A stretch of DNA of 35,062 bases. Origin: Bdellovibrionia bacterium. GTDB lineage: Bacteria; Bdellovibrionota; Bdellovibrionia; Bdellovibrionales; UBA1609. The stretch is from the NCBI GenBank assembly GCA_030432925.1, contig JAUILT010000026.1, forward strand, positions 1-35,062. The letters are read 5' to 3'. How positions within the stretch are numbered: the stretch's first letter is position 1; each line of letters begins with the position of its first letter. A model generated the notes under the pieces. It made no database searches. It was given only the letters and a program-made list of their open reading frames with translations, and was not told where the DNA came from. A program made the translations under genes and the position numbers. Below are positions 11,569 to 14,222 of the stretch, one piece after another.

Positions 11569-12246
11569 TTAAAAGTAAGAACCAATTCCTGCGCCCAGGG
11601 TCACCCCAGTGGAGGTTATCTCAGCACTGTTGGCTTTTAGGGTGGAGTAATCAAAACGAAGTTCACCAATAAGAGCTACATGATCATTTATAGGAAACCA
11701 ACGGGCTCCCGCTGCTACACCCAGTTTTACGCCATCCCTCTTAACGTTCTCAGAGTCTTGAGAAATCAATGCCATTGAAGGGCCTGCATAGGGAACAAGT
11801 TCAGCTCCCGGTTTGTTGTCCTTAAAGTTAAAGTGATAAAATCCACCCAATGCAACTGTGGTTGTTTGTTCATCGTCCACAGTGCTAATCAGGTATGAAG
11901 TTTCTGGCCCAAATTCATGCTTCCTAAAGTTGAAACCAAACTTCAAGGCTGTAGAGAGTAATCCGTGCTCTACTTTCTGTGTCACACCAGAACTTTCTGT
12001 GGATTCAGATGTCTGTCCATAAGACGCCTGAAGGACTATGGAGTATTGCCTCTGGCCATTTCCATCCAGCCCCTTTTCCTGCCACACCCCTTGGTCAATA
12101 CGAATGATATCCCCTTTTTTATATTTCAGGTGTTTAGGAAAGCGAACAATGCCCTTACTTCCTTTAACCTTAATAACTCGAATATACTCGGCCGCAATTG
12201 CCGAAAGTCCCATAGAAAAAATAACTAATAACAGAAGAGCCTTCAT
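11569..12246 (-). CDS. Predicted outer-membrane beta-barrel protein
   Basis: A 225-aa exported protein. Residues 1-19 form a Sec signal peptide (MKALLLLVIFSMG, cleavage near AIAA). Residues 20-60 form a small basic domain rich in Lys (IRVIKVKGSKGIVRF). From about residue 68 the chain has alternating polar and aromatic strands with Gly turns and ends in Phe (GAGIGSYF), as expected for a C-terminal beta-signal read by BamA. About eight strands are plausible, similar to small OmpA/OmpW-like barrels. The ATG at 12246 is preceded in frame by TTG, which I disregard. The methyltransferase-like gene is 43 bp upstream on the same strand. The precise family is unknown. Confidence 0.7.
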   Translation of the reverse strand: MKALLLLVIFSMGLSAIAAEYIRVIKVKGSKGIVRFPKHLKYKKGDIIRIDQGVWQEKGLDGNGQRQYSIVLQASYGQTSESTESSGVTQKVEHGLLSTALKFGFNFRKHEFGPETSYLISTVDDEQTTTVALGGFYHFNFKDNKPGAELVPYAGPSMALISQDSENVKRDGVKLGVAAGARWFPINDHVALIGELRFDYSTLKANSAEITSTGVTLGAGIGSYF

Positions 12247-12289
12247 CAACTAAAAGCCTACCCAAAAACTGATTGTATTGCGAGGGTTT

Positions 12290-13126
12290 TCAGTCTGAAG
12301 CCAAAGGTCTAGGGATGGTACGCCGAACTACGACCCTATGATAGCTGTGGTTTTGAGAAATCACCACGGGCTCTCCAATTGTTTCACGAAGATCCTGTAT
12401 AACCTTATCATACTCAGAGCCAGAAGACTTTCCACCAAATCGACTCACAACAACGTCCGAAGTCTCAAGCTCCATATCACGAACAGATAAGTCTAAAATC
12501 AGAACGCCACCCATATTTAAACTAGATATTATTGAAGACCTATAAACATCGTAGGGAAAAAGGTAACCCAGGCCACGAAAAGAGGTGATAATATCATAGT
12601 TTTCCCGAGTAACCTCTGGCGCACCAGGTTCAAAAGTTTGAATTTTTACAGCTTTAGAATTTCTCATAATGAGGTCTTTAGCCATTTGAATTATGTTAAA
12701 ACCTCCTTTTTCTACCTTATCTATTAAGGTTAATTGAGCTTTGGGATGGTTTCTAGCAATCAAAATATCAATGCCACCGATGCCACTCCCAATATCCAAA
12801 ACTGATGGAGAGTCAAAATCCTGGAGAAAGTCTTTAATGAGAATCCAGTCTTTGTAGACTCGCCCTGAAAAATAGGCATGAGTTCTTGAGCCATACCCCA
12901 TTCCTGTTAAGTAATTTGTGTAGGCGGGGTTCGACTCTAGAAAACGAATGACTTCGGAGGGAATATCTAGACTTTGATAAAAAGACGTCGGCTCACTGTT
13001 TCGTGAAATGATATCTGCACAGTTTGGAGTGGCAACACTCTTATGCGAAGCTAAGATACAATAAAGAGAAAAAACAAGGCTCAAAATCAACTGTTTTGAA
13101 TGGTATAAGAAAGCCGATCGATACAT
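12290..13126 (-). CDS. Class I methyltransferase-fold protein with apparent signal peptide
   Basis: 278 aa. The core is a Rossmann-type SAM-binding fold. Motif I is VLDIGSGIGGID at 109-120, an acidic residue at the end of beta-2 is D136 in LTLIDK, and a third strand-loop is ITSFRGLGYLF near 180. Unusually, the N-terminus looks exported: basic/neutral residues 1-12, a hydrophobic run at about 13-27, then a possible cleavage after KSVA (residue 32). There is no lipobox. Methyltransferases need SAM, which is cytoplasmic, so the protein may act in another cell, be membrane-tethered, or use the fold for another purpose. The ATG at 13126 has no clear SD. Residues 33-105 are not recognised. Confidence 0.7.
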   Translation of the reverse strand: MYRSAFLYHSKQLILSLVFSLYCILASHKSVATPNCADIISRNSEPTSFYQSLDIPSEVIRFLESNPAYTNYLTGMGYGSRTHAYFSGRVYKDWILIKDFLQDFDSPSVLDIGSGIGGIDILIARNHPKAQLTLIDKVEKGGFNIIQMAKDLIMRNSKAVKIQTFEPGAPEVTRENYDIITSFRGLGYLFPYDVYRSSIISSLNMGGVLILDLSVRDMELETSDVVVSRFGGKSSGSEYDKVIQDLRETIGEPVVISQNHSYHRVVVRRTIPRPLASD

Positions 13127-13300: not shown

Positions 13301-13467
13301 CTAGTGTCGTAACCAATAAAATTTTTCACCGGCAGCGCAGGAATTTTTGAGTAAATTCAATGCGAGACGACGAAGGACTGGCCAGAAGCCAATTCGAGGA
13401 GGAACAAATTGGAGTTGCTTAAAAATAACCAGCTGGGGGTGAAAAATTTTATTGGTTACGACACTAG
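13301..13467. mobile_element. 167-bp MITE-like palindromic element
   Basis: Perfect 30-bp terminal inverted repeats (13301-13330 and 13438-13467) begin CTAGTGTCG and end CGACACTAG, enclosing 107 bp with no open frame. The complementarity continues imperfectly inward (CAGC and TTTTT blocks), so the whole unit could fold into one long hairpin. Perfect TIRs, small size and absence of a gene fit a miniature inverted-repeat transposable element. The four terminal bases CTAG are at both ends and may be the target site. The right end supplies the TAG stop codon of tpiA. No second copy is in this window. Confidence 0.7.
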
Positions 13468-14222
13468 TCGACCTCTTGACCTTGCCTCCAAATACTCACA
13501 AAAGACTCCACCTTTAGTGAAGCTCCTCCCACAAGAAAACCATTCACGTGGGGCTGTGCCCCCAGTTCTCTAGCATTTTCAGGCTTCACACTTCCCCCGT
13601 ACAACACAGGAACTTTCTCACTCTTTCCAGGAAAGATTTGCTCCAGTTGAGTTTTAAGTGCTTTATGAGCCTCTTCCACCTGTTCTGACCTGGCAACCTC
13701 ACCAGTGCCAATGGCCCAGACGGGTTCGTAAGCCACCCAAAAAGTATGGATGAAGTCCCAACCCTTTAAAGCGATTCTTAACTGTTCACAAATCACATCC
13801 AGAGTTTTTTCTGCCTTCCTCTCGTCGAGAGTCTCACCAACACAAATCACAGGAGTGAGACCGACCTGAGCGGCTGTCTGCATTTTCTTTTGCGTATCTT
13901 CATTTGTTTCATTGAACAATAACCTTCGCTCGCTGTGGCCAACCAGCACATGGGTGGCCTTCATTTCTTTGAGCACAGCTGCAGAGTTTTCTCCTGTGAA
14001 CGCTCCTGAGGTCTCCCAGTGAATATTTTGCGCTCCCCAATTCAACCCCTCCAAAAGCTCATTTCCAGATAGCTGATGAAGCGTGAGTGCGGGTAAGAAT
14101 AAGGCAAAGTTAGATCGTTCACTAATACTTACCGCTGAAGCAAAGTCTTTGAGAAAAGCATTTGTAACTTCGGGACCATGATTCATTTTCCAGTTTCCAG
14201 CACAAATAAGTTTTGAAGACAT
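13464..14222 (-). CDS. tpiA: Triose-phosphate isomerase
   Basis: Interconverts glyceraldehyde 3-phosphate and dihydroxyacetone phosphate in glycolysis. Its 252 aa is the normal length. Catalytic residues are visible: Lys12 in GNWKMN, His96 in VGHSERR and Glu166 in AYEPVWAIGTG. The phosphate-binding YGGSVKPEN and GFLVGGAS segments are present. ATG 14222 follows AAAGG. It is the last gene of gap-pgk-tpiA, 25 bp after pgk. The stop codon TAG lies in the terminal CTAG of the adjacent palindromic element, so the insertion may have trimmed or altered the last residues (RQGQEVD). Confidence 0.97.
   Translation of the reverse strand: MSSKLICAGNWKMNHGPEVTNAFLKDFASAVSISERSNFALFLPALTLHQLSGNELLEGLNWGAQNIHWETSGAFTGENSAAVLKEMKATHVLVGHSERRLLFNETNEDTQKKMQTAAQVGLTPVICVGETLDERKAEKTLDVICEQLRIALKGWDFIHTFWVAYEPVWAIGTGEVARSEQVEEAHKALKTQLEQIFPGKSEKVPVLYGGSVKPENARELGAQPHVNGFLVGGASLKVESFVSIWRQGQEVD

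Follow-up and report, generated by a model that had tools for sequence, protein, structure and literature searches.

A palindromic mobile element at the tpiA stop codon of a Bdellovibrionia bacterium carries a hairpin core shared across bacterial phyla

Introduction

Bacterial MITEs, the Correia/NEMIS, RUP and Chunjie elements among them, are miniature transposons of 50–500 bp that carry terminal inverted repeats (TIRs) but no transposase gene, occur in multiple copies at TA-containing targets and are moved by IS630/Tc1- or IS5-type elements; when transcribed, they form hairpins. Their TIRs are constant and tie them to one IS. REP/BIME elements with RAYT (Y1) transposases are intergenic hairpins too. 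Predicted short RNA elements of Geobacter, reported from other deltaproteobacteria as well, are likewise intergenic (PMC2700814), and a MITE in a dsrA intron of Thiomargarita, the 'MITEtron', forms a long hairpin with many intergenic copies and no parental IS found (PMC4853749).

Here we describe an element at the tpiA gene of a Bdellovibrionia bacterium (assembly GCA_030432925.1), located in a window of 35,062 nucleotides that comprises positions 1 to 35,062 of contig JAUILT010000026.1. At 167 bp, with perfect 30-bp arms, no ORF and 12 dispersed copies, it agrees with bacterial MITEs in size, repeats and copy number, and it shares their TA-containing target and hairpin. In contrast to those MITEs, the core is its constant part and the arms vary, the length is ~165 bp across phyla, and no parental IS was found. 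In the general core, the apical hairpin (CGACGTAGC..GCTACGCC) resembles the central palindrome of the Geobacter elements, GRCGTAGCGCTGCTACGCC, a likeness drawn from their consensus palindrome (PMC2700814). The 'MITEtron' ends in TATAG (PMC4853749), as does one subfamily studied here (in genome G040). Elements of Omnitrophota contain inverted pairs as BIMEs do; unlike REP/BIME, however, the element described here has TIRs and TA/CTAG ends, and in several of its carriers no Y1 gene was found.

Results

Structure of the element at tpiA

The original prediction, made from the letters of the window, was of a 167-bp MITE-like element with perfect 30-bp arms and CTAG ends, and inverted-repeat analysis found its coordinates to be exact (Table 1). 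The long hairpin that it proposed is equally well supported: arms extended to 36 nt (13301–13336 and 13432–13467) are 94% complementary, and the predicted folding energy of the 167 nt lies 13 SD below that of shuffled sequences (–78.1 kcal/mol versus –32.7 ± 3.5, z = –13; folded as DNA, z = –10.5). The ORF list contains no frame of at least 80 aa inside 13301–13467, in agreement with the expected gene-free interior. The core of ~100 nt is made up of stems with strong covariation, an internal loop of purines and, at the apex, a rod rich in G.A, and its apical motif may be read as repeated C-G, G.A, A.G modules, that is, tandem G.A pairs. A small peptide encoded in the core (ATG CGA GAC GAC GAA..., 20 codons) was considered and rejected, its frame being broken by single-base indels in relatives.

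Table 1. Features of the element, in coordinates of the window.
Feature	Position	Strand	Remarks
Whole palindromic element, 167 bp	13301..13467	+	+ is the strand with the conserved fold and core; 12 copies, 98–100% identity, in its own genome
Left arm (TIR), perfect 30 bp, starting with the target CTAG	13301..13330	+	Same ends in the copies
Conserved hairpin core	13333..13434	+	Covariance model R1, 101.9 bits; covariation
Internal loop, 5' strand, conserved, purine-rich (GCAGGAA)	13337..13343	+	Alignments A1, A2, A4
Inner stem, 5' strand, T5 first	13344..13361	+	Partner 13408–13425; sequence varies, pairing kept (covariation)
Apical motif CGACGAAGGACTGGC-CAGAA-GCCAATTCGAGGAG	13368..13401	+	Read as two [C-G, G.A, A.G] modules closing a small hairpin; same motif in G037, G040
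Inner stem, 3' strand, A5 last	13408..13425	+	Covariation
Internal loop, 3' strand (TAACCA here; consensus GAACAA)	13426..13431	+	Alignments A1, A2, A4
Right arm (TIR), perfect 30 bp, CTAG at its end	13438..13467	+	Inverted-repeat analysis; ends of the copies
CTAG target copy over the tpiA TAG stop codon	13464..13467	.	tpiA on the minus strand; 5 of 12 copies on a TAG stop

tpiA (13464–14222, minus strand) is the last gene of the minus-strand gap-pgk-tpiA series, and its TAG stop (13466–13464) falls within the right-hand CTAG, as predicted. The accompanying proposal that the element supplies this stop codon did not stand in that form, because CTAG, found in unrelated flanks, is most simply the target; the insertion probably struck the stop codon and did not deliver it. 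Alternatively, the last few tpiA codons may have changed with the insertion, the tpiA ends of this genome and of a same-genus relative (G001) being different. A terminator role at the 3' end of gap-pgk-tpiA had also been suggested. No U-tract follows the hairpin on the operon strand and no intrinsic terminator was predicted there, and 11 further copies stand at unrelated places, all of which argues against that role. A long double strand in the mRNA would presumably draw RNase III and could alter 3' ends, as is known for Correia elements (reviewed in PMC10969869).

A methyltransferase-like ORF (12290–13126) lies between the element and the ORF at 11569–12249. In G001, a homologue of the latter directly follows the 3' end of tpiA, so the methyltransferase-like ORF is either an extra gain beside the element or was lost in G001.

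Copies and mobility

Searching the bacterium's own genome (G000, 172 contigs) for further copies of the palindrome recovered 12, 98–100% identical, six of them full-length and six cut at contig ends, where collapsed repeats usually break. CTAG stands at all copy ends but one, a mutated CCAG at one end of L004, and the sequences outside are unrelated. In five of the 12 copies an ORF stop lies exactly on the CTAG, as a TAG codon. Given its presence at both ends of nearly every copy, its unrelated flanks and these five TAG stops, CTAG is most simply the target site; being palindromic, it leaves a target duplication unprovable in this genome. CTAG occurs 63 times in the window against 67 expected from a second-order Markov model, and the copies at stop codons are therefore most likely harmless insertions. 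Copies point both ways relative to the adjacent gene. The genome also holds a collapsed 64-bp copy in which the arms alone are kept and several solo arms, which resemble what deletions in an unstable palindrome would leave behind.

The tpiA 3' end was compared with that of G001, which lacks the element both downstream of tpiA and at the L006 site and whose last tpiA codons differ; exact empty sites are blurred in comparisons with G001 and G002 at 65–77% identity, the G001 comparison standing at 65–67%. Since a relative of the same genus lacks the element after tpiA, we conclude that it is a mobile element and not an inherited terminator. Direct evidence of one subfamily transposing into another, both in one genome, comes from G040 (contig 52, 57203–57533; L263/L288), where a CTAG in the apical loop of one element, which has TATAGTCCG arms, is the site of a second, nested element that has GGGGCTGTCCGG arms and a core of its own. 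Both partners carry the core, and a target duplication there could measure 2, 4 or 6 bp. The 12 copies, their precise CTAG ends, the absence from G001 and the nested insertion bear out the predicted MITE-like nature, and the converse outcome, a single copy kept by vertical descent, does not hold for a sequence repeated 12 times and missing after tpiA in G001.

Several other remnants were seen in G040. The sequence TACAGTCCGTTCGGACTATA at L299 (contig 116, ~26142) is an element collapsed to two 9–10 bp tips and stands at the far end of a series of deletion products that runs from full length down to tips. This genome, which represents another family of the order, also has a solo arm from another subfamily 24 bp 3' of tpiA (L292, contig 94, ~45801), possibly by chance or possibly as a favoured site. 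A further solo arm stands immediately ahead of an RNase P RNA-like sequence (GAGGAAAGTCCGGACTCC; L261, contig 13, ~27256). In G037, a 6S RNA gene (Rfam RF00013; L047, 1701–1886) is found ~140 bp from an element copy.

A conserved core between divergent arms

A search of 59 related genomes gave matches at query positions ~35–133, with the ends unmatched, in G033, G037 and G040, and the matching places in these three genomes proved to be complete palindromes with different arms. Between subfamilies, arm identity is 54% in pairs versus 50% for shuffled arms, and identity over a 48-nt core is 70% versus 55% when shuffled. A conserved centre with different ends is the reverse of what is expected for an ordinary miniature transposon, and it is the part that the first reading of the window missed: the interior hairpin core shared across phyla is conserved, not the terminal repeats. 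The arms retain a faint common start (TAGTGTC-like). Common to the aligned elements are the apical motif CGACGAAGGACTAGC..GCTAATTCGAGGAG and the internal loop GCGCAGGAA/GAACAAGC beside the T5/A5 helix; the stem sequences change while their pairing persists.

Covariation was evaluated in 47 cores aligned by fitting to the covariance model; an earlier free MAFFT alignment gave the same picture. All 32 pairs show at least one double-sided change, double-changed cells number 392 against 105 in shuffles, and 90.9% of cells are paired, compared with 62.7% after shuffling and 30–47% with the partner slid. Length is uniform as well, at 158–173 bp (mean 165, SD 3.4) in 27 subfamily representatives hand-picked from model and pattern matches and measured where the ends were recognisable. 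Non-Watson-Crick pairs in the arms, counted on the core strand, comprise 44 G.T and 16 A.C (p = 4e-4), and the core strand outfolds its complement in 24 of the 27 representatives. This strand bias points to a folded single strand, since a constraint on double-stranded DNA would not distinguish the strands; tolerance of G.T fits ssDNA as well as RNA.

Distribution across phyla

Of 369 genomes of the phylum, 22 have the core according to covariance model R1; they belong to several families, and the copies are often many and located at contig ends. A generalised pattern matched 55 stretches in Omnitrophota, Elusimicrobiota, Actinomycetota/Acidimicrobiales, Gemmatimonadota, 'Deltaproteobacteria' and Patescibacteria as well as a Pseudobdellovibrionaceae MAG, and many of these matches are complete palindromes with CTAGTG..CACTAG ends (for example L127, L161 and L159). 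The core is present in 29 of 285 genomes of the phylum to which Candidatus Velamenicoccus archaeovorus belongs, usually as two inverted cores ~10–25 bp apart inside one outer arm pair (L249–L257 included); these two-core elements are three-way-junction-like and form a separate structural class. Taken together, ~165-base hairpin elements constitute a widespread and so far uncurated group in several bacterial phyla.

Carriage by plasmids or phages was considered and found no support. Plasmids gave no match with the generalised core and otherwise chance-level matches only; viral contigs gave no exact core match, and phages none for the element itself. One weak match to the generalised core (81% over 51 nt, E 0.009) lies at 223–273 of MT837857.1, an unannotated 8-kb phage record from human faeces. 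Membership in a known RNA family was also set aside, as Rfam release 15, applied to the window and 20 relatives, returned no family at gathering threshold for the element.

Search for a transposase

A transposase with matching TIRs, sought among IS630, IS4/5 and Y1 genes, did not materialise. The single DDE_3 (IS630) gene of G000 (L034) lacks these ends, and none of its four DDE_Tnp_1 (IS4/5) matches is flanked by them. DDE_Tnp_1 was not found in G037, G369, G370 or G374; several carriers have neither IS630 nor IS4/5 genes, and such genes carry other ends where they are present elsewhere. Y1_Tnp genes exist in several carriers and were not found in six others (G004 and G369–G373). TIR-only searches for an autonomous copy in G040 and G241 yielded MITEs, collapsed copies and solo arms, with no autonomous copy flanked among those inspected of the 45 arm-like ends in G040. 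An IS1380-like gene beside an element in L179/L159 is apparently a mere neighbour and not a partner. Draft assemblies can lose multi-copy IS, which makes the absence of a transposase weak evidence.

Discussion

The sequence at tpiA is probably a copy of a palindromic, non-autonomous transposon with TA in CTAG/YTAR-like sites as its target. It would belong to a multi-phylum group of ~165-bp elements in which the arms diverge and a single hairpin core is conserved, a core that would work as folded RNA or ssDNA. That the sequence is mobile and carries this core we regard as nearly certain; for the mechanism proposed for the core our judgement is about evenly balanced. A DDE-type transposase supplied in trans would recognise the arm ends and cut and join at TA. 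At tpiA, the CTAG at the stop codon would have served as the target, and tpiA would thereby have stayed functional. A single strand of the core, + at this locus, would fold into two stems, an internal loop and a rod built of G.A modules. The folded strand, whether as RNA transcribed from the element or as ssDNA laid bare during replication, would be bound by a factor of the host or of transposition. Binding of such a factor would place the core under selection. Counting against this account, the faint common arm start may mean that arms and transposases have drifted apart from one ancestor.

An ordinary MITE, that is, an internal-deletion derivative of one resident IS630- or IS5-like IS with a neutral interior and a core of leftover IS sequence, would explain a short, gene-free, multi-copy element with perfect TIRs at a TA/CTAG target, and the arm starts resemble IS630/IS5-type ends. 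A neutral interior should, however, diverge faster than the arms, and in these elements it is the core that different phyla have in common, with arm identity close to chance. The pair-by-pair covariation of the core and the fixed length of the elements likewise run counter to such an origin, as does the failure to find a matching IS among the IS630 and IS4/5 genes examined, and we consider it unlikely; conserved core and fixed length across phyla are not predicted by the ordinary MITE model. About as unlikely is a primarily structured RNA, or set of RNA regulators, that turned mobile and has a host function where it lands. Covariation and G-U bias would suit it, and PMC2700814 lists the Geobacter relatives as predicted short RNA elements, but copies lie in both orientations relative to the adjacent gene, and the patchy presence within the phylum gives no hint of a host-essential function.

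A REP/BIME-like mode of movement, in which a Y1 (HUH) transposase works on hairpins of ssDNA, is in our estimation improbable. The conserved single-strand hairpin, the BIME-like paired inverted cores of Omnitrophota elements and the Y1_Tnp genes of several carriers speak for it; the six carriers in which Y1_Tnp was not found speak against it, and symmetric TA/CTAG ends are typical of DDE transposition and atypical of REP elements. Vertical inheritance as a terminator of gap-pgk-tpiA, or as a hairpin that stabilises its mRNA, would account for the position directly 3' of the tpiA stop, and the solo arm after tpiA in G040 could be cited in its favour. With 11 other copies at unrelated genes, no element after tpiA in G001, and neither a U-tract nor a terminator call, this possibility is highly improbable.

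A literature search, mostly outside subscription papers, did not turn up any account of a core shared between phyla, of its fixed length or of its covariation. Somewhat speculatively, the preferred reading of a non-autonomous transposon with a functional core could be extended to a distinct kind of mobile element in many phyla: a hairpin of fixed length (~165 nt) with a G.A-rich core that acts in folded form, as RNA or ssDNA, and takes an active part in the element's own mobility or survival, the element being able to pair with different transposases through a change of arms.

MITEs are usually viewed as IS debris, with only the ends of any importance; in the elements described here, conservation lies in the interior. 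Should the core act as a folded single strand, these elements would be a mobile element class with an RNA or ssDNA structure under selection, which raises the question of which protein reads the core. The covariance model is ready for genome annotation, and, if this account is true, many unannotated palindromic repeats in environmental genomes could be explained.
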